Assembly: GCA_900128395.1 (NCBI GenBank)
Contig: LT649278.1
Location: 1-46,791, forward strand
DNA length: 46,791 nucleotides
Reading direction: 5' to 3'
DNA from: Stramenopiles sp. TOSAG23-2
Taxonomy: Eukaryota; Sar
Below, one piece after another: positions 16,092 through 34,679 of the stretch (position 1 is its first letter; every line of letters starts with the position of its first letter). The notes beneath the pieces were generated by a model. That model was given only the letters and a program-made list of their open reading frames with translations. It was not told the origin of the DNA and made no database searches. Both the position numbers and the translations under genes were made by a program.

Positions 16092-16118
16092 GCATTTGGG
16101 ATTTCATCAAAATCAGTT

Positions 16119-16475
16119 GTTAACAAGGTTATTTTTTATACCTATATATAATACTAGATATAAGTATGATTATTTCATATACTGATAGATTCAACCTGGT
16201 AATCCCATGATGTATATTGACAAGATGTGCAGATGATTTGTTAACAAGGTTATTTCCTTTCCTATATACAATACTAGATATAAGTATGATTATTTCATAT
16301 ACTGATAGATTCAACCTGGTAATCCCATGATGTATATTGACAAGATGTGCAGATGATTTGTTAACAAGGTTATTTCCTTTCCTATATACAATACTAGATA
16401 TAAGTATGATTATTTCATATACTGATAGATTCAACCTGGTAATCCCATGATGTATTGACAAGATGTGCAGATGAT
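16119..16475 (+). repeat. Tandem repeat, three units of about 120 bp
   Basis: Units start at 16119, 16240 and 16360, each with GTTAACAAGGTTATT. The second and third are nearly identical; the first and the end of the last carry small changes. The array ends about 360 bases before the RPB1 start. Because 120 is a multiple of three, it leaves an open frame on the minus strand, which I regard as incidental. Confidence 0.9.
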
Positions 16476-16835: not shown

Positions 16836-19800
16836 ATGTCTGCTGAATTTGCTTATTCCAGAGCACCATTGCGACGTATTGAAGAATTGCAATTTTCAGT
16901 TTTCAGTCCAGAGGATATTCGTGCACAATCAGTTACGCAAGAAGCATTTATCAATGGTAAGCGTATTAAAGAAGGTATTAATACTTCAAGATGTCACGAT
17001 GAGAGTGGTAATCCAATATATGGTGGTTTAAATGATCCAAGGATGGGATATAAATTTGATGACAAGGAATGTGTAGGTTACTTTGGTCATATTGAACTTG
17101 CACGCCCTATGTTTCACATGGGATATATTGATAAGGTTCGTATGGTGTTGCAATGTGTGTGTTTTGACTGCGGTACGCTTTTAATCGATGAGAAAGATCC
17201 AACATATCATCGTATTATGAACGAACATAAGCGTTCGGAAGATCGTTTAAAGGAGTTTACTAAAATATGCCGTGGCAAAAAGAAGTGTTATGGTGGTGAC
17301 GATTTGAATGAGGACATGGAGGAAACTGGTGGCAAAGAAGTGATCCGTCGTGGTTGTGGTGCAAAACAACCAAAAATTTCGAAACCTGCCCACTCTCAAC
17401 TTTCATTTGAATATGATAATGAGGAAGATCTTGAAAATGATTTAGGTGCTGGTGGTCGGGATAGGAAACAAATGTTACAAGCTTCTCATGTTAACAATAT
17501 TTTTAAACAAATATCTGAAAAAGACATGAGAGCACTTGGTTTCCATCCAAAATGGTCCAGGCCTGAATGGCTTTTATGGCATGTCATGCCTGTGCCACCA
17601 CCACATGTTAGGCCATCCGTGCAATTTGGTTCCGGTGTTAGTGATGATGATTTAACACATAAATATATTGGTATTGTAAAAGCAAATATTGCGTTGAAAA
17701 ATAGTATTCAAAATGAAGATCCTGCGTTCACTACGAATCAATATGCCGAGTTGTTGCAATATCATTGCTCGACATTGATTAACAATGAATTGGCAGGGCA
17801 ACAGCAAGATAAATATAGGAACGGCAAGCCGTTGAAAACGATACGTCAACGTTTAGTTGGAAAAGAAGGTCGAGTACGTGGTAATTTAATGGGAAAGCGT
17901 TGTGATTTCACATCGAGAACGGTTATTACTGCCGATCCAATTTTATCTATTCAACAAGTTGGCGTTCCAAGGAGTATTGCATCCACGTTAACTGTTCGAG
18001 AACGCGTAACGCATTTTAACCAAGAGCGTTTGCATGAATTGATTGCACGTGGGCCGGATCGCCACCCAGGAGCAAATTATATCATACGCGACGATGGTGG
18101 AGTTATCGATTTAAAATTTGTGCGTAATAAAAATGATTTGCAACTTGTAGTTGGATGGATCGTAGAAAGGCATTTAAATGATGGTGATGTTGTATTATTC
18201 AATCGTCAGCCATCTTTGCACAAAATGTCTATCATGGCGCATTATGCAAAGGTACTTGATTGGAGTACATTTCGTTTGAATTTATCATGTACGCCACCAT
18301 ACAATGCCGATTTCGATGGGGATGAAATGAATCTTCACGTTCCACAATCATTAGAAGCAAGAGCGGAGGCGGAGAAAATGATGCTTACCCCATACATGAT
18401 TGTTTCCCCACAAAGTAATGCTCCGGTGATGAAAATTGTACAAGATTCCTTGTTAGGTGCATCATTGATTACCAAACGTGACATTTTTATCGATCGTGAA
18501 TTGATGATGCATTTGTTGATGTGGGTGAAAAATTTCAATGGGAAAATGCCAGTGCCTGCAATTATGGTGCCTCGTAAAAACGTGGAAGACGACTACACAG
18601 ACGGTTATGATAGTTATTGGACTGGGAAACAATTGTATTCGATGATATTGCCAAATATCAATATGCAAAAAAATTCTGGTGGCGCACCGGATGGGCAAGG
18701 AATCACAGACCTTTCTGTGACAGATTCATATGTTTACATCGAAAATGGTACGTTGCATTGTGGAAATATAGATAAAAAAAGTTTAGGAGCAGGAACAAAT
18801 GCGTTAATTCATATTACATGGTTAGAGGTTGGACCAATGGCAGCACGTGATTTAATTGATAATACGCAATTGGTCATCAATGCATGGTTGATCCATTGGG
18901 GCTTTAGTATTGGTGTTGGAGATACGGTGGCTGATGAAGCAACTATGTTTGAGATTGCTCGTATCATTGATGAGAAAAAGGATAAAGTGGCAGAGCTTGT
19001 AAAGCAAGGCCAGAACAATGAATTAGAATCGCAACCAGGTCGTACGATGATACAAGTTTTTGAAGATTCCGTGAATCGTGCATTAAATGCAGCACGTAAT
19101 GATTCCGGAAAAAGAGCATCAGACTCTTTACCAAAAGATAATAGTTTTAAAATTACCGTCACATCCGGTAGTAAAGGTAGTGCAAATAATATTGCGCAGA
19201 TTTTAGCATGCGTAGGACAACAAAATGTTGAAGGGAAACGAATTAAAAACGGATTCCAATATCGAACGTTGCCACACTTTGCAAAAGATGATTTAGGTCC
19301 TGAATCTCGAGGTTTTGTTGAAAATTCATATTTGAAAGGGTTAACACCTGCTGAATTTTACTTCCATGCAATGAGTGGAAGGGAAGGTATTATTGATACT
19401 GCATGTAAAACTGCAGAGACAGGATATATCCAACGCCGTTTAGTAAAAGCCATGGAAACCATCATGGTCCGTTACGATGGGACCGTGCGTAATGCAGAAG
19501 GTCATATTGTTCAATTTTTATACGGTGAGGATGGCATGGCTGGTGAATTTGTTGAGCAGCAAAAAATGTTTACTATGAAAATGAGCCATAAAGCTATGGC
19601 AAGGAAATTCAAATTTAGTGATTACAAACCTGGTGAAGAAACTGTTAATGGCAAAACGCATCGCTTCATGTCGACCCAAGCAATTGAAGATGTTGAACGC
19701 GATGTGGACACGAAAAGGTATTTGAGGGAAGAATACCAACAATTATTAGTGGATCAAGAGACATTAGCAGAAATTGGGGTATGGCGTAAAGCAATTCTCT

Positions 19801-22266
19801 CGTCGCCGGACGTTGCTGATACCAGAATGCCAGTACCGGTTAACATGGCACGCTTAATCAATAGAGCAAAATTGCAATTTAGAAATGTAAATAACGTTTC
19901 AGAGCTCCATCCAAAAGAAGTCGTGAAAGATGTATTAGAATTATTCGAACGATTAATCATCGTGCCTGGAAGTGACAAATTATCCATCGAGGCACAGCAT
20001 AATAGTACGTTATTATTTAAAATATTGACTAGAATGTATTTAGCAAGTAAAGTAGTCATAAAAGAACATCGTTTAACATTGGCTGCTTGGAAATTTATTA
20101 TAGGTGAAATTGAATCCAAGTTTAACCGTGCGCGTTCAAACCCTGGTGAAGTTTGTGGTGTATTAGCAGCCCAGTCCATTGGTGAGCCTGCTACACAGAT
20201 GACACTGAACACTTTCCACAATGCTGGTATTGCATCGAAAAATGTGACTCTTGGGGTACCTCGTTTGAAGGAAGTTATCAATGTCAGTAAACGTATTAAA
20301 ACGCCTGGTGTTACTATTTATTTAAAGGAGGAGGATGAAGATGGCAAGAAAATTAGCTCTGTTCAAGAACGCGCGACGCAAGTACAGGCATCTTTAGCAT
20401 TTACAACCTTACGTGATATTACGTTATCGACTTCCATTATCTACGATCCAGTAGTTTTTGAGGAGGAAGATGGATTTAAAAAAATGGTATCATGTATTGA
20501 AGAACACAATGGTATGTTGGAAACGTGGTCTGAGGCACCAGATGATTGGCTTGATATGGAACGTGTAGAAGAAAGAGGTTATCTTTCGCCATGGGTGCTA
20601 CGGTTTGAATTAAATCAAGCTGCCATGTCTGGTAAACATTTAACCATGGCTGATGTAAAAGAAAAATTAATGGCTGAATTTGGTGAAATGTTTTTGATCA
20701 TTGTTGAAGAGTCATTAGATAGGAAGCAACTTGCGCTTATACGTCTTGTTCAAGAAGAGTATATGGACGGTGGTGGTGATGAGCAGAATTATGGTGATGA
20801 TGATGACGGCGGTAATAAAGAAGATTTTGCAGTAGATCACGATGAGTTGTTGAAACAAATCGAGTCGGAGTTATTAGACGAGGTTCAATTGTGCGGAATC
20901 TCTGGTATTGACAAAGTATACACACGTTTGGAGAAGAATGGTAAAACATATACCCATGGCAGTGGCTTTACTGAACGTCAAGAGTGGATTTTAGAGACGG
21001 ATGGAAGCAATTTATTAGAAGTATTAAGTCATCCGGATGTTGATCATACTCGAACTATTAGTAACGACGTATGCGAAATTGGAGACGTATTAGGTATCGA
21101 AGCTTGTCGTGGTTCGATATTAAAAGAAATTCAAACCATTCTTTCATCGTATGGTTTATATGTTAATTATCGACATTTAGCAATTTTAGTTGATGCTATG
21201 ACATCACGTGGGCATTTAATGTCTATTACTAGAAATGGAATCAATCGCGTTGATCACGGTGTATGGCAAAGAGCAACTTTCGAAGAAACCGTTGAAATTT
21301 TATTTGATGCTGCTGCCATGGCTGAAAGTAATACATTAAAGGGTGTCTCTGAAAACATTTTAATGGGACAACAATGTCCATTTGGTACTGGTATGTTTGA
21401 TTTAATATTAGATGAAAAAATGTTAATGGAAACTATTGAAGTACGTGGTGATGAAAATGTCAAGAAACCTAGCGCCGGCTATGGGAACGATTCATCATCG
21501 ACAACAGATAGTGATATAGATCCTGAGGAACCATGGATCTTAGATGATTCTGGCCAAACACCAAAAGTTAATATTGGTAGCATGACACCAATAATGGGTG
21601 GTGTAGGCAACCAAAGCACGCCGACCACCAATGGTGGCTTTGCTACACCAAAAATGACGGATAATGATAGTGGTGTAGAATGGAGCCCAGAACCAATGTT
21701 GGATACGAAATCACCTATGGTGTTCCAAGGATATGGAACGGAAGGAGGGATGAGTGGCAGCGGAAGTAGCGGGAATGAAGATTCGCCAATATATTCACCT
21801 GGTAGTGATGATGGTGGAGATAATTCTCCTGTATATAGTCCGACGAGCCCTCAATATAGTCCGACGAGCCCTCAATATAGTCCGACATCACCGGCTTATT
21901 CGCCAACTAGCCCAGCCGTATGTAAAAATCGATCACATGAAAAAATCAAAACATCCCAACAGTATTCGCCAACTAGTCCAGCTGTAGGTAGAACTCAATC
22001 AACACATTCGCATGAGAAAATCAAATCAAAATCTAACATAAAATTTTTTATTACATTCCAACAGTATTCGCCAACTAGTCCAGCTGTAGGTAGAACTCAA
22101 TTAACACATTCGCATGAGAAAATCAAATCAAAATCTAACATAAAATTTTTTATTACACCCCCAATAGTATTCGCCAACTAGCCCCGCATATTCCAGCGAA
22201 GATGGAAGCCCGCAGTTGGAAGTCACGCTTTCGCCAAATGTGGATAACAATAACAACAATAACTAA
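16836..22266 (+). CDS. RPB1: RNA polymerase II largest subunit (RPB1), spliced in the CTD
   Basis: This is the catalytic largest subunit of RNA polymerase II. Exon 1 (16836-21917) encodes 1694 residues. It has the N-terminal clamp zinc site (CVCFDCG then RGCG), the active-site motif NADFDGD (490-496, binding catalytic Mg2+), the funnel segment GSKGSANNIAQILACVGQQN, and the bridge-helix/trigger-loop region [20 protein letters not shown] (about 849 onward). AAQSIGEPATQMTLNTFHNA follows, and then the CTD. CTD heptads (YSPTSPQ, YSPTSPA) begin near 21835. A straight read gives non-heptad peptide between heptads and closes at 22181. Removing GT-AG introns 21918-21962, 21984-22064 and 22086-22167 gives two 21-nt exons of one heptad each and a last exon ending EVTLSPNVD plus six Asn, stop at 22266 (1740 residues). 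About seven canonical heptads remain, very few for RPB1. Splicing is inferred from sequence only. Confidence 0.93.
21918..21962 (+). other. RPB1 candidate intron 1 (45 nt, in frame)
   Basis: Donor GTATGT and acceptor CCCAACAG fall exactly at the end of one YSPTSPA heptad and the start of the next, in phase 0. It looks like a shortened version of introns 2 and 3, sharing CACATGA-AAAATCAAA. It lacks their CTAAC branch-site-like motif and T-run. At 45 nt, open in frame, it may be weakly spliced or retained as a 15-residue linker. Confidence 0.6.
21984..22064 (+). other. RPB1 candidate intron 2 (81 nt, in frame)
   Basis: Donor GTAGGT, a branch-site-like ATCTAACAT, a T-rich stretch and acceptor CATTCCAACAG are all present. 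The flanking exon (21963-21983) is exactly one heptad codon set. The length is a multiple of three with no stop, so retention would insert 27 residues, including HEKIKSKSNIKFF. Confidence 0.8.
22086..22167 (+). other. RPB1 candidate intron 3 (82 nt, frame-shifting)
   Basis: It is nearly identical to intron 2, with a few substitutions and one extra base near the acceptor (CCCCCAATAG). Retention would shift frame and end the protein eight residues later at 22181. Splicing restores a last heptad and a conserved-looking acidic tail in the same frame to 22266. It is the strongest evidence that this region is spliced. Confidence 0.85.
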
Positions 22267-22823: not shown

Positions 22824-24398
22824 ATGACATCGATACAAACGAAAAGTGAAGCGACTAATGGCAATATTCCAATAAACCAATCAGGGTATAATGCAGATTT
22901 TTTATCTCAAGCAATAGATATGCCAGTTAAATCATTTGAAGTACAAAATTTTGGTGCTGAAGGTGCAGGTGGAGGATTCGCAGGCGGTATTGTGTGCCGT
23001 TTTAAAAATATTGAATATGAAGGTAACAGTGATGAGGGCAATAGTAGACCGAAAACATTAATTTTAAAATGGTTAAATATGGCTAACGGTCCTACCAGTG
23101 GAGGGGCGCCCGGAATACCTTTTATTTCAAGACTTTTATTATTTTCGATATGTAAAATGGAGATGAATACTGAAGAAGTTCAAAGAAGAGAATATGATTT
23201 TTTCAATGGGAAATCATTGTTACAAGAAAAAATTGCTAATGCAGGGGTAAAATTACCAGATTGCTATGCATGCGATATGCTTGATTATGGTGATCCAAAT
23301 CTTTGTTGTATGGTCTGGTGCAATAAAAAAACAAATATGCGCAGGTATATGTTTTTCGGTGATATTACAGATGAAATGTAAGTATACAGTGTCTATAATA
23401 TAAAATAACATTTTTCCGTTGGCTGTGTCGTCTCTCTACTAAATTACTAACTATAATGGCACTAGTAGATAAAAAATGTCCTCTCTAACAATACCTCATC
23501 ACCATTTGTTCATATATGTGTATATATATATTATTATAATTAATACATACATGCTTCATTATATTATATAAAAAACACTATATTTTATTCCAGGGCTGAT
23601 AAATACGAAGTCACAAGTATGAACATTACAGAAAAACATATTGAAATTGCTATTAAAAATATGGCAAAAATACATGCCGTAAATTGGGGGAAAAAGAAAA
23701 ATTCAAAATTATTAAAAACAATTAAAAATACGTATTGGTATCCATGTGTCTTTGGTTGGACAAAAGTTTTAAATGATATGAAAAAAAAATATTCATTTCA
23801 GAAATATATTAATGAATATGGTAGTGAACGCACATATTTAGCAGAGAATAAAATATCTGAACCATTGGTACGATTGGAAACATTATATCGTGATAAAATT
23901 TCCACAATCCTTGAAAATCTTGATGATAAACAGACTATATTACATGGTGATTATCATTGTGGAAATATTATGTTTTTAAAAGATGTTGATGATGCGATCA
24001 TATTAGATTGGCAAATGTATGGCCATGGACATTTTGCATATGAATTTGTATATTTTGTTTATTCAGCATTAGCAAATGCACCATATGTAGATAGAACACG
24101 AACATTTAATTATTTAAAATTATATTATGATGAATTAATCCAATTGGATGATGGTACAATTAACAAAGAATTGACATGGGAAGAAGCCAAAAGAGTCTTT
24201 GTCTGTGTATGTTTGGAGTTGTTTGTATGGGTTATAGCAATTTATAGGGCTGATATTAAGAAACGAAATGTTCGAGATGCTGAAAACAAACGTGATAAAC
24301 GATTTGTTGAAGTAAATGGTGTATTAGATAAACGTGATGAAAATTTTACATTATTTGTTGTCGATTTGATGAATAATTTGAAGGAATATGGGTTGTAA
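22824..24398 (+). CDS. CHK/EcKinase-like small-molecule kinase, two exons
   Basis: This spliced gene encodes 452 residues. Exon 1 is 22824-23377, the intron 23378-23593 (GTAAGT to TATTCCAG, 216 nt) and exon 2 23594-24398; the join restores ATG-GCT-GAT in frame. The protein has a protein-kinase-like/APH fold: a Gly-rich N-lobe (FGAEGAGGGFAGG), a Lys-bearing strand (TLILKWLN), the Brenner-type catalytic motif HGDYHCGNIMF (about 302) and the metal-binding DWQMYGHGHFAYEFVY (about 323). The spacing and HGD/DWQ pair fit the EcKinase/CHK-like branch, which phosphorylates small alcohols such as ecdysteroids in insects, or a related aminoglycoside/choline-kinase-like phosphotransferase. The natural substrate here is unknown. 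The chosen ATG follows an A-rich leader. Confidence 0.8.
23378..23593 (+). other. Intron of the EcKinase-like gene
   Basis: Donor GTAAGT follows exon base 23377 and acceptor TATTCCAG ends at 23593. The intron carries stops in all frames and is more AT-rich than the flanking exons. Splicing joins two halves of one kinase domain in frame. Confidence 0.9.
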
Positions 24399-28577: not shown

Positions 28578-30569
28578 TTATAAATTTTGAAATTCATCAT
28601 GTGTAAGCATTTCAATAGCTTCCTCATCTGCTTCCTTCTCTTCCCCATCTTCAAATTTATCATTAGCAGCTTTTTCATACCATTCTTTTGCTTGTTTTAA
28701 ATCTTTTTTGATACCATAACCATAATGATACATATTGCCAAGTAAACGTTGAACTTCAGATAAATTTTCATAATAACGTTTTTCCCACTTCTTTACTAAT
28801 TGTGAAAATAATTCAAATGCCTTTTTATAATTTTTTCTTACACCTTCACCATTTTTATACATTATACCTAGTAAATGTTGAGCATTGGCGTCTGTACGAT
28901 AATGGCCTTCATGAGACCCTACTGCTTTTTTGAAATATTCAAATGCTTTTTTATCATCTTTTATAACACCTTCACCATTTCTATACATTTTACCAAGCTG
29001 AATTTGACTCCAACGGATGTAAATTTTATCTTTGCCTATTTCAATTGCTTTGGTGTAATATTCAAAGGCTTTAGTATAATTTTGTGGCATTTCATCTCTT
29101 TCATAGTACAATTCAGCTAGCAAATACTCATATTTACCACTCTTGCAGTGATCTGCTGCTTTTTGATACCATTCTTCTACTTTTTCATAATCTTTTGTAA
29201 CATATTGACCATGTAGATACATCTCGCCAATATAACACATACTACTTGAATCTTTACAATGCTGTGCTGATTTTGTGAAAAATTCAAAAGCAACTTTATA
29301 ATTTATGGTACACCCAGCCATTCCATAAAGATAATACCAACCAATTCTAGACAGTAAGCCAGAATTTTGCTCTGTTGCTTTTGTCAGCCATTCCAATGCT
29401 TTTTTTTCATCTTTTGGAAAACTATCACCACAACCTTTTTCATACATCTCACCAATTGCTTGGGAACTCTCAGCATATCCTTGTTCAGATGCTTTTTTAT
29501 ACCATTCCAAAGCTTTATTATAATTCTTTGTGATAAAATCTATCCCACCACAAAAATACAGAGCAATTGCATATTGACCTTGCGCAAATCCTTGTTCCGC
29601 AGATTTTTTATACCATTCGAATGCTTTTTTATCATCTTTTGCAACACTGTCTCCATACATACGAGGACTATATGCTTCACCAAGATAATATTGACCAATT
29701 GCTGATCCTTGTTTTGCTGATTTCATCAACAAATCAAATGCTTTCTTATTGTCTTGTTTTACACCATGACCATCACAATAGCATCTACCAAGCCAACATT
29801 CACCATATGCATCTCCTTGTTCTGCTGATTTACTAAAATAATCAAATGCTTTTTTATCATTATCTTTATATCCGAAACCTTTTAAAGGCTCGATTTGAAT
29901 ATAATGCAAAAAACCAAGTATATTTTGTGATAAACTATCATTTTTATTATTTTCATAATATTTAGTAATAATATTATATCCTTTTTCAGCATCTTTAATA
30001 AAATTACCAAATCCAAAAACATGACATAGACCAATTGCAAGATCAAATCCACTATATGCAGATATTTCAATCATTGTTTGATATTGAAGTGGTATAAATA
30101 TCTGTGAATCGTAGTCATATTTGCGAATTAAATGAAGAAATCCATTCATCATCAATTCACGTGTACCAACAGATAAATCAATACTAACATTATTATTATT
30201 ATTATCAATCTTATTTTTACGACGTTTTTTTCTTCTGGATGTAGATGATGATGAAGAAGATGAGCTGGTAGTACTACTATTGCTGCTGCCATCAGCATTA
30301 TTGTTTATCTCATCCACACCTTTTCGTTTTTTACCTGTTACATTATTGCTATTACTAATGTCTTTACCAACAGCGTCCTTCACATTCTTAATTTTCAATT
30401 CAATAATTTCATTCATTTTTTTCAATATTTCAAGTTTTTGTTTATTTATTAATAATGATTTCTTCACTACTTCAAAATTCAGTTTTGCTTCATCATATGC
30501 TTTTTCTGATTGAATATATTCATTTTTCAATTTTACGCTATTGAAATGCTTACACATGATGAATTTCAA
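28578..30569 (-). pseudogene. 3' portion of disrupted U-box/Sel1 gene (copy B)
   Basis: This 663-codon frame holds the coiled-coil and Sel1-repeat part of a protein whose N-terminal half is the next frame upstream (30566-31405). The first codons (MKFIMCKHF) are junk from an inserted fragment; homology to copy A begins at NSVKLKNEYIQ. A coiled coil (about 10-70) and a Ser-run/basic patch (SSSSTSRRKKRRK) precede about 11 Sel1-like repeats of roughly 36 residues, such as AFDYFSKSAEQGDAYGECWL. The intact tail is EEAIEMLTHDEFQNL. Sel1 arrays are solenoid scaffolds. The frame is separated from its U-box by a 107-base insertion, so a full-length product cannot be made unless this is an assembly error. 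Confidence 0.75.
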
Positions 30570-30577
30570 AATTTATA
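30537..30577. repeat. Inverted copy of the gene's own 3' end at a duplication junction
   Basis: Bases 30537-30577 match the reverse complement of about 28579-28619, the extreme 3' end of the same gene. They lie between two direct copies of a 72-bp coding segment (30471-30542 and 30578-30649). The six bases GCTATT at the junction belong to both sequences, a microhomology typical of template switching. Confidence 0.85.
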
Positions 30578-31405
30578 TTCAAAATTCAGTTTTGCTTCAT
30601 CATATGCTTTTTCTGATTGAATATATTCATTTTTCAATTTTACGCTATTTTCCTCCTCTGATTTTATCATTAAAGATTGACAATCTTTGATAGCATTATA
30701 TTTATTTAATTCATCAGCTTTTTTATTTAAGAAAAGTGCAATTTCAGATTCAAGGACACTAAACGATGATACTACCTCTGTAGTTAAAAGTGAATTAGAA
30801 TCAATGTACTTTTTCCATTTATTAATTTTTTCACTTGTCACTAAGACTTTTGGACTTGATTGTACAAGGTTTGCAATCTTTGATATGGTTTCAATCACAT
30901 TATTCGTTGTCTCTGATGTTAGCATTTCACCCTCAATCGTCCTCAACGCTTTATTGAAATCAATGCCATTTTTATTTTTTTGTTGCCACGATGATATCAT
31001 ACTTTTTACCATATGATTTGGTGTTAACATATGATTATTTAAAATAGCACCAGTTAAAGGAGATCTAACAGGTTGACCTTCTTTTGTTGCAATCCATTTT
31101 TCAATAGATTCACGCATATGATTTGGTGTTAACATATGATTATTTAAAATAGCACCAGTTAAAGGAGATCTAACAGGTTGACCTTCTTTTGTTGCAATCC
31201 ATTTTTCAATAGATTCACGTTCATATGTTTGCCCATCTGATGCTATAACAGGCTCTTTAAATATTTCACCACTAATTGAGCATATAAAATGTTCTGGTGT
31301 TGGCACTTGCATACCACCAGTATCTTGACTATTTGAAATTGACGTCGTCGCCGTGGTGGAATTCGTCGTCGTCGTTGTGGTTGTTGTTGTTGGCATCATC
31401 ATCAT
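30566..31405 (-). pseudogene. 5' portion of disrupted U-box/Sel1 gene (copy B)
   Basis: This 279-codon frame starts MMMMP plus a Thr run, as in copy A. It carries a U-box (about residues 38-105: HFICSISGEIFKEPVIASDG, then YERESIEKW), the E2-binding RING-like fold of E3 ubiquitin ligases that lacks zinc ligands. The second half of the U-box is tandemly duplicated (105 bp, 35 residues, 31009-31218), which probably distorts the fold. A helical region follows and the frame stops shortly after AKLNFE, where copy A continues into its Sel1 repeats. The insertion at 30537-30577 is the cause. Confidence 0.75.
31009..31218 (-). repeat. 105-bp in-frame duplication inside the U-box
   Basis: Two adjacent, apparently identical 105-bp units (31009-31113 and 31114-31218) each encode 35 residues beginning RESIEKWIATKEGQPV and ending LTPNHM. 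Copy A has one unit. The lack of differences implies a recent event. Confidence 0.9.
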
Positions 31406-31950: not shown

Positions 31951-34679
31951 TTATAAATTTTGAAATTCATCATGTGTAAGCATTTCAATAGCTTCTTCAT
32001 CTGCTTTCTTCTCTTCCCCGTCTTCAAATTCATCATTAGCAGCTTTTTCATACCATTCTTTTGCCTTTTTTAAATCTTTTTTGATACCATAACCATAATG
32101 ATACATATTGCCAAGTAAACGTTGAACTTCAGATAAATTTTCATACTCGGAACCTTCACCTTCATCTACCGATTTTGTAAATAGTTCAAATGCCTTTTTT
32201 TTAAATCTTTTTTGATACCATAACCATAATGATACATATTGCCAAGTAAACGTTGAACTTCAGATAAATTTTCATACTCGGAACCTTCACCTTCATCTAC
32301 CGATTTTGTAAATAGTTCAAATGCCTTTTTGTTGTTTTTCCGCACTCCCTCACCATTTTTATACATTATACCTAGTAAATGTTTAGCTTCAAAAGATTCA
32401 TCATCTTCGTCATGTTCTAGTGCTTTTGTGAAATATTCAAATGCTTTTTTATCATCTTTTATGATACCTTCACCATTTCTATACATTATACCAAGCTGAA
32501 TTTGACTATAACAGATGTAATCTCCATTTTCAATTGCTTTGGTGTAATATTCAAATGCTTTAGCATAATTTTGTGGCATTTCATCTCCGTAATAGTACAA
32601 ATTTGCTAGCATATACTCATATTCACCACTCTTGCAGTGATCTGCTGCTTTTTGATACCATTCTTCTACTTTTTCATAATCTTTTGTAACATATTGACCA
32701 TGTAGATACATATCGCCAATATAATTCATACTACTTGAATCTTTACAATGCTGTGCTGATTTTGTGAAAAATTCAAAAGCAACTTTGTAATTTTTGGTAC
32801 ACCCATTACTTCCACGAAGATAACTCCAACCAATTTCAAACATTAATTTAGAATTTTGCTCTGTGGCTTTTGTCATCCATTCCAATGCTTTTTTTTCATC
32901 TTTTGGAAAACTATCACCACAACCTTTTCTGTACAACTCACCAATTATTTGGGAACTTCGAGCATATCCTTGTTCAGATGCTTTTTTATACCATTCCAAG
33001 GCTTTATTATAATTCTTTTTGATAAACCCACTTCCATAGCGAAAATACTGAGCAACTTCATATTGACCTTGCGCAAATCCCAGTTCTGCAGATTTTTTTA
33101 ACCATTCAAATGCTTTTTTTTCATCTTTCGCATCACCGTATCCATACCTATATGCATCACCAAGATAATATTGACCGATTGATGATCCTTGTTTTGCTGA
33201 TTTCATAAACAAACCAAATGCTTTCTTTTTGTCTTGTTTTACACCACATCCATAACAATAGCATATACCAAGCAAACATTCACCATATGCATCTCCTTGT
33301 TCCGCTGATTTACTAAAAAAATTAAATGCCGTTTTTTTATTATTTACGGTTTCGAAACCTTTTAAAGGCTCAATTTGAATATAATGCAAAAAACCAAGTA
33401 TATTTTGTGATAAACTATCATTTTTATTATTTTCATAATATTTAGTAATAATATTATATCCTTTTTCAGCATCTTTAATAAAATTACCAAATCCAAAAAT
33501 ATGACATACGCCAATTGCAAGATCAAATCCACTATATGCAGATATTTCAATCATAGTTTGATATTTAAGTGGTATAACAATCAGTGAATCGTAGTCATAG
33601 TCGGCGATTAAATGAAGAAATCCATTCATCATCAATTCACGTGCGCCAACAGATAAATCAACACTACTAACATTATTATTATTATTATCAGTCTTTTGCT
33701 TACGACGTTTTTTTCTTCTGGATGTAGATGATGATGAAGAAGACGAGCTAGTAGTACTACTATTGCTGCCATCAATATTGTTACCGTTTATCTCATCAAT
33801 ATTTTTACGTTTTTTTCCTGTTACATTATCGTTATTAATAATGTCTTTACCAACAGCGTCCACCACATTCTTAATTTTCAATTCAATATTTTCATTCATT
33901 TTTTTCAATATTTCAAGTTTTTTTTTATTTATTAATAATGATTTTTTCACATTTTCAAAATTCAGTTTTGCTTCATCATATGCTTTTTCTGATTGAATAT
34001 ATTCATTTTTCAATTTTACGCTATTCTCTTCCTCTGATTTTATCATTAAAGATTGACAATCTTTGATAGCATTATATTTATTCAATTCATCAGTTTTGTT
34101 GTTTAAGAAAAGTGCAATTTCAGATTCAAGAACACTAAACGATGATACTACCTCTGTAGTTAAAAGTGAATTAGAATCAATGTACTTTTTCCATTTATTA
34201 ATTTTTTCACTTGTCACTAAGACTTTTGGACTTGATTGTACAAGGTTTGCAATCTTTGATATTGTTTCAATCACATTATTCGTTGGCTCTGATGTTAGCA
34301 TTTCACCCTCAATCGTCCTCAACGCTTTATTGAAATCAATGCCATTTTTATTTTTTTGTTGCCACGATGATATCATACTTTTTACCATATGATTTGGTGT
34401 TAACATATGATTATTTAAAATAGCACCAGTTAAAGGAGATGTAACAGGTTGACCTTCTTTTGTTGCAATCCATTTTTCAATTGATTCACGTTCATATGTT
34501 TGCCCATCAGCTGCCATGACAGGATCTTTGAATATTTCACCACTAATTGAACATATAAAATGTTCTGGTGTTGGTATTTGCATACCACCAGTATCTTGAC
34601 TATTTGAAATTGACGTCGTCGTGGTGGTGGAATTCGTCGTCGTCGTCGTTGTTGTTGTTGTTGTTGGCATCATCATCAT
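31951..34679 (-). CDS. U-box/Sel1-repeat protein (copy A), tail frameshifted by duplication
   Basis: The open frame runs 34679 to 32166 (837 residues). A Thr-rich N-terminus (MMMMPTTTT) precedes a U-box (about 38-105: HFICSISGEIFKDPVMAADG, GQTYERESIEKW), a helical/coiled-coil region (about 120-285) and a Ser-run with a basic patch RRKKRRK. About 11 Sel1-like repeats (about 390-825) follow, such as AFGLFMKSAKQGSSIGQYYL. U-box plus Sel1 suggests an E3 ubiquitin ligase with a solenoid substrate or chaperone-binding arm; the substrate is unknown. A 131-bp tandem duplication (about 32071-32332) shifts frame, so translation ends at ...KKRHLNYLQNR instead of the ancestral tail EEAIEMLTHDEFQNL, which is still readable down to a stop at 31951. 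Only about 35 C-terminal residues are replaced, so function may survive. Confidence 0.85.
32071..32332 (-). repeat. 131-bp tandem duplication causing a frameshift
   Basis: The segment beginning TAAATCTTTTTTGATACC occurs at 32071 and again at 32202, and the two copies are essentially identical. The period of 131 is not a multiple of three. Copy B has a single unit at the matching place (about 28700). Confidence 0.9.

Follow-up and report, generated by a model that had tools for sequence, protein, structure and literature searches.

Introduction

The CTD of RPB1 is a platform that couples transcription to splicing and recruits splicing factors, and its expansion in primate malaria parasites was reportedly described by Kishore in 2009. 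Short exons in series, the skipping of which alters protein length without a frameshift, are a feature of the troponin T gene TNNT3 and of schistosome micro-exon genes. For TNNT3, exons 4-8 are described as alternatively spliced (PMC2447309). The number of RPB1 CTD repeats changes across eukaryotes (PMC4362643), and tandem genomic duplication can lead to intron gain, a duplicated exon becoming an intron by way of AGGT (PMC3443670).

Here we analyse an RPB1 gene in which heptads of the CTD alternate with GT-AG segments. The term window denotes the whole stretch of DNA that was analysed, 46791 nt in length. Two of these segments, 2 and 3, resemble spliceosomal introns and are named as such in the following list of features.

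Contig C45, 1-46791: the window, part of a genome assembly of 17.45 Mb in 793 contigs
16836-22181, + strand: unspliced ORF of 1781 aa, the first 1694 codons of which are RPB1
16836..21917, + strand: RPB1 exon 1, 1694 codons without interruption, with the entire catalytic body and the first four YSPTSP[QA] heptads
21834..21917, + strand: four contiguous heptads, two identical YSPTSPQ 21-mers followed by two YSPTSPA
21918..21962, + strand: segment 1, 45-nt GT-AG, donor GTATGT, without CTAAC, a decayed relative of segment 2
21963..21983, + strand: putative micro-exon 1, 21 nt, one YSPTSPA
21984..22064, + strand: putative intron 2 (segment 2), 81 nt, donor GTAGGT, branch TCTAAC, acceptor CAG
22032..22037, + strand: TCTAAC, the branch motif located 29 nt before the end of intron 2
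22065..22085, + strand: putative micro-exon 2, one YSPTSPA, identical in DNA to micro-exon 1
22086..22167, + strand: putative intron 3 (segment 3), 82 nt, donor GTAGGT, branch TCTAAC, acceptor TAG
22134..22139, + strand: TCTAAC, the branch motif located 30 nt before the end of intron 3
22168..22266, + strand: last exon, YSPTSPA (22168-22188), then the tail YSSEDGSPQLEVTLSPNVDNNNNNN and a stop

Comparison with described systems

As in the known changes of CTD repeat number, numbers differ between relatives and near-identical heptad DNA lies in tandem. In contrast to those changes (PMC4362643), the copied unit here includes a putative intron between heptads. The resemblance to TNNT3 and the schistosome genes consists in short exons that could be skipped with a change of length and the frame preserved, but only two putative micro-exons are present here, both coding for the same heptad. 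Multiplication of introns by tandem duplication inside one gene is shared with the intron gain of PMC3443670; unlike that type, an existing intron would have been copied here, and the junctions are without AGGT, reading GCC/GTATGT or GCT/GTAGGT and CAG/TAT or TAG/TAT. The lack of AG/GT at the junctions rules out intron gain of the AGGT type, whereby homology between intron and exon was judged by eye only. Near-identity of the introns is reminiscent of introner-like elements (PMC4457414), but copies occur in one array only. DNA searches of the own genome, in which simple repeats and very common words were skipped, found the array only at RPB1, on which ground an introner family was rejected.

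According to the sequence-only reading, CTD heptads as individual exons were not known to have been described before. This agrees with our search, limited to openly licensed PMC literature, in which no paper on such heptads was found among those listed. The CTD of database entry P0097, an RPB1, runs into a non-heptad stretch and then into RPTRRRA repeats, seemingly heptads in a shifted frame; by our reading, the gene caller may have read through an intron there. In view of this entry, the presence of an intron within a CTD is probably no novelty. A different irregularity is seen in P0042, an RPB1 with 13 motif-counted heptads, none of them spaced exactly 7 residues, and with spacers rich in Gly, Ala, Met and Ser.

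The RPB1 gene

The protein encoded in the window resembles RPB1 over its full length and carries a heptad CTD. Protein search (best 120 of 8000 scored) lists P0002, a fragment at 99%, and P0003, a relative at 69%, with oomycete and other RPB1 at about 47-49% to the window protein. The top matches of a PDB sequence search are Pol II RPB1. In a quick tree of 37 rows, computed on the first 1560 residues and rooted at the midpoint for drawing only, the window protein forms one group with P0002, P0003, P0004 and P0069 (SH-aLRT 100), and branches apart from oomycetes, diatoms and a thraustochytrid. We describe the organism as a stramenopile-like protist. The N-terminal part of RPB1 has a single full match in the own genome, at the window locus; hence this gene is no spare copy of RPB1. 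Two further loci, which presumably encode the Pol III and Pol I counterparts, match that part at 38% and 32% identity.

A 120-bp unit is present three times (97%) at 16117-16475, a few hundred bases 5′ of the RPB1 start codon. An Rfam scan of the whole window returned nothing at gathering scores, and RNA folding of the array region was discarded as evidence (z 0.78).

Anatomy of the array

The three GT-AG segments, of 45, 81 and 82 nt, are located exactly where they had been claimed to be (3/3), and the same holds for the blocks between them; only the first heptad begins at 21834 instead of 21835. The two internal blocks are identical 21-mers, each coding for one YSPTSPA as had been proposed, and all junctions are in phase 0. 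Segments 2 and 3 are near-identical, with 77 matches, 4 mismatches and 1 gap column in 82 columns. The description of segment 1 as a shortened relative is likewise borne out: aligned to segment 2, it displays 39 matches and 6 mismatches with gaps of 9 and 27 nt, and the similarity of the interiors was equalled in 25 of 5000 mononucleotide shuffles. TRF detects the array independently (21951-22181, period 102, 95% matches). The sequence supports the proposed tandem duplication of a unit composed of intron and heptad. In their DNA the last four heptads are near-identical to one another and unlike the first three. The tail following the last heptad is acidic and ends in Asn.

The observation that each internal exon would hold precisely one heptad is exact, but it calls for no special cause, since copying of an intron inside a 21-nt repeat yields one-heptad exons automatically. 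Only the register was free, i.e. the position between A7 and Y1 (1 in 21).

Reading frame and splice models

The frame stays open over segments 1 and 2 and almost the whole of segment 3, so that missing stops are no mark of either presence or absence of an intron. Segments 1 and 2 lack stops and have lengths divisible by 3; by shuffling, the chance of finding no stop in them is 0.66 and 0.33, respectively, for which reason missing stops were discarded as evidence. The frame is broken by the 82-nt length of segment 3 only. If segment 3 is retained, the frame shifts and reaches a stop at 22181, and the last heptad and the tail are lost; the C-terminus of this unspliced model is ...TPPIVFAN, and the peptide that unspliced translation would yield is VGRTQSTHSHEKIK. 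Among 12 translated splice models, the last heptad and the tail are reached only if segment 3, or a span up to its acceptor, is removed, and predicted products that reach the tail have 5, 6 or 7 heptads. Restoration of the protein by removal is thus seen for segment 3 only, with segments 1 and 2 in frame either way. Compared with the final 60 aa of P0003, the last exon scores 63 in the spliced frame, part of which comes from the heptad that it takes in, versus 15 and 16 in the other frames.

Evidence for introns

GT and AG ends are present in 3/3 segments, and the TCTAAC motifs of segments 2 and 3 have no counterpart in segment 1. For the branch motif of segment 2, the probability of a chance occurrence is about 0.013 (20,000 dinucleotide shuffles). 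For comparison, introns were sought in about 247 kb and in six small kinase stretches, and eight were accepted: one each in L010, L018, L020, L028 and L030, two in L015, and one at 23378-23593 of the window, within a gene identified by eye as kinase-like. These introns are 84-216 nt long, with donor GTAAGT in five and GTATGT, GTACGT and GTAGGT in one each. All eight contain CTAAC, 20-42 nt from the end in 7/8 and 106 nt in one, whereby five of them came from scans that favour CTAAC (the window intron and those of L028 and L030 did not), and the acceptors of L028 and L030 were placed partly by help of listed CTAAC sites. The five from L010, L015 (twice), L018 and L020 were kept from 13 printed candidates of one scan and 8 rows of another; the rest was dropped by eye because of weak flanks, lack of a branch motif or alternative acceptors (L008, 277 nt, among them). 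From the six kinase stretches L028 and L030 were accepted, the introns of both interrupting protein-kinase domains, and L027, L029, L031 and L032 were left out of the intron count; L029 looks like an intron with its acceptor not placed. Judged by eye, the L030 intron (641-820, 179 nt) seems to be internally repetitive.

Segments 2 and 3 resemble the eight accepted introns in donor, branch, acceptor and base composition. Their donor GTAGGT recurs in the L030 intron that splits a kinase domain, and the donor GTATGT of segment 1 recurs in one of the L015 introns. Segments 2 and 3 are slightly shorter than the shortest accepted intron (81 and 82 versus 84 nt), while segment 1 with its 45 nt is far below it.

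Two controls show the intron model for this genome to be thin and built on few cases. A scan joining ORFs gave 8 rows (6 donors) with CTAAC, compared to 5 and 5 with two scrambled motifs. Counting of motifs alone displayed no enrichment of CTAAC over permutations for any of three donor types (GTA[AT]GT 18 versus a permutation mean of 19.1, GTAGGT 5 versus 4.5, GTACGT 2 versus 5.6), and was discarded as evidence for introns. In codon usage, segments 2 and 3 lean weakly towards non-coding, with scores as low in 16 and 7 of 224 coding windows and as high in 51 and 66 of 270 non-coding windows. Segment 1 leans to neither side, the respective figures being 36/224 and 27/270. The test is a weak one here, since the certain CTD exon is itself low (34/224 coding, 31/270 non-coding). 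A protein search with the translation of the segments, in which lengths of 0.55-1.75 times the frame were eligible, gave 89 candidates and none at E<=10, which is weak evidence as relatives are few. The search for the U2 snRNA family found no match, with the controls remaining without match as well, and none of the viral contigs scanned for an intron word contained it.

Taken as sequences, segments 2 and 3 have the appearance of spliceosomal introns. Segment 1, which had been put forward as an intron in its own right, is doubtful as such in view of its length and the missing CTAAC.

Proposed origin of the array

We consider it somewhat probable that related introns lie in the same CTD register, that the unit was copied twice, and that introns 2 and 3 are spliced, with segment 1 either kept or its donor used together with acceptor 2. 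We infer the splicing, the order of events and the isoforms as follows. A founder intron would have come to sit between two near-identical heptads. Unequal exchange between such heptads, a natural route given their near-identity, would then have copied intron plus heptad, a unit of about 102 bp, twice. Segment 1, the most divergent copy, may have lost 36 nt including its branch site. Introns 2 and 3 would most likely be removed, giving a continuous run of heptads with the tail in frame. Segment 1 would either be kept in the mRNA, adding 15 codons, or its donor would join acceptor 2, in which case micro-exon 1 is skipped.

A sub-case of this proposal treats segments 1 and 2 as one intron of 147 nt, donor 1 being used with the branch site and acceptor of intron 2. 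Micro-exon 1 would never be used, and only micro-exon 2 would be real. Segment 1 has the donor GTATGT but no CTAAC, and the next pair of TCTAAC and acceptor is that of intron 2, which speaks for this arrangement. On the other hand, branch sites can be degenerate, and micro-exon 1 is undamaged, its DNA being the same as that of micro-exon 2. We regard the single 147-nt intron as a serious possibility, albeit one that we would not expect to prevail.

This sub-case and the three alternatives considered below are not mutually exclusive, and the probabilities assigned to them need not sum to one.

Reliability of the assembly

One of the near-identical units may be spurious, for example with alleles or overlapping contig ends joined unmerged; the real gene would then have segment 1 and a single full intron, and no more than one micro-exon. 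The assembly offers several grounds for this suspicion. A scan of 247 kb yielded 18 tandem duplications, 54-174 bp in size, in which an exact run covers at least 0.9 of the period; 15 of them have periods of 94-132 bp, a range that includes the RPB1 period of 102, and in 17 the exact run is at least as long as the period. Exact two-copy duplications lie in the window (31010-31219 and 32066-32330) and in L005, L008, L010-L013, L015, L018, L020 and L021. Frames that would be longer with one copy are interrupted by 4 of the 18 (L021:3011, L011:197, L015:7811 and window 32066), one of these four gaining only slightly. The exact duplications reflect either joins made during assembly or frequent recent tandem duplication in this genome. 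Contig pairs C18/C644 and C163/C209 give kinase matches with identical coordinates and scores, by which the assembly looks redundant, unless these are allelic contigs. By our reading, the kinase gene of L027 appears to contain a one-base frameshift at a homopolymer.

The RPB1 copies are set apart from the exact class by differences at 5 of 82 intron columns, an indel among them. The breakpoint falls within heptad sequence common to both sides, as unequal exchange would give, and the array is found at no second place in the genome. Erroneous joining of allelic RPB1 copies is possible, and a spurious unit as a whole appears unlikely.

The exact duplications of about 100 bp were also considered as new introns and rejected: on the strand of the frame, 3 of the 4 in long frames are without AGGT and all 4 without CTAAC. 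On the - strand of the window, at 30440-30720, a short filler is flanked on both sides by copies of about 70 nt of coding sequence, and what by eye is an apparent single repeat-protein gene is split into two frames.

Segments as possible translated inserts

The segments might mostly be kept as lysine-containing linkers between heptads and only optionally be spliced. Exitrons are defined as stop-free interiors of coding exons with canonical splice signals (PMC4484396), and segments 1 and 2, stop-free, a multiple of 3 in length and with canonical ends, are similar to them; the deletions of 9 and 27 nt in segment 1 also speak for such linkers. The difference lies in segment 3: its retention shifts the frame and truncates the protein some eight residues further on. 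In addition, the lack of stops is unsurprising at the chances stated above, the codon usage of segments 2 and 3 points weakly away from coding, and P0003 has no such insert by eye, with only one 16-residue spacing among its heptads. We consider translated linkers improbable.

CTD length

The spliced CTD would have 7 heptads, compared to 20 in P0003 (one motif, last 700 residues). Counted by the same single motif, at least 9 heptads are present in 114 of the best 120 database rows. The six rows below 9 are P0002, which ends before the CTD, P0060, which ends inside the heptad run, P0100, which is named partial, and P0087, P0098 and P0121. The claim that the CTD grew is doubtful in view of this comparison, while copying of the unit itself is supported. 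A number below that of most listed rows points to either a short CTD or a collapsed assembly. The CTD of P0003 would be encoded by one exon, judging from its uninterrupted predicted protein.

Identical units of about 100 bp tend to be compressed by short-read assembly. The locus could contain more units of intron and heptad than were assembled, most of the CTD consisting of one-heptad micro-exons, and the count of 7 heptads would fit such a loss. Since the search of the own genome gave no extra place for the cassette, and some lineages may simply have short CTDs, a collapsed array is rather improbable in our view.

Implications

If single heptads are separate exons, heptad number would be a splicing decision, and the length of the CTD could feed back on splicing. 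A more far-reaching version, in which most of the CTD is an expandable array of introns and heptads compressed in the assembly, its length set by unequal exchange and by heptad-wise exon skipping, strikes us as very improbable; if it were true, Pol II would tune the length of its own CTD through splicing. The array is of interest if RNA confirms splicing. Even without heptad-wise splicing decisions, the locus would be a plain example of intron copying within a protein repeat, in which introns are carried along as the repeat expands, although the frame of the gene is unbroken elsewhere across 5 kb.
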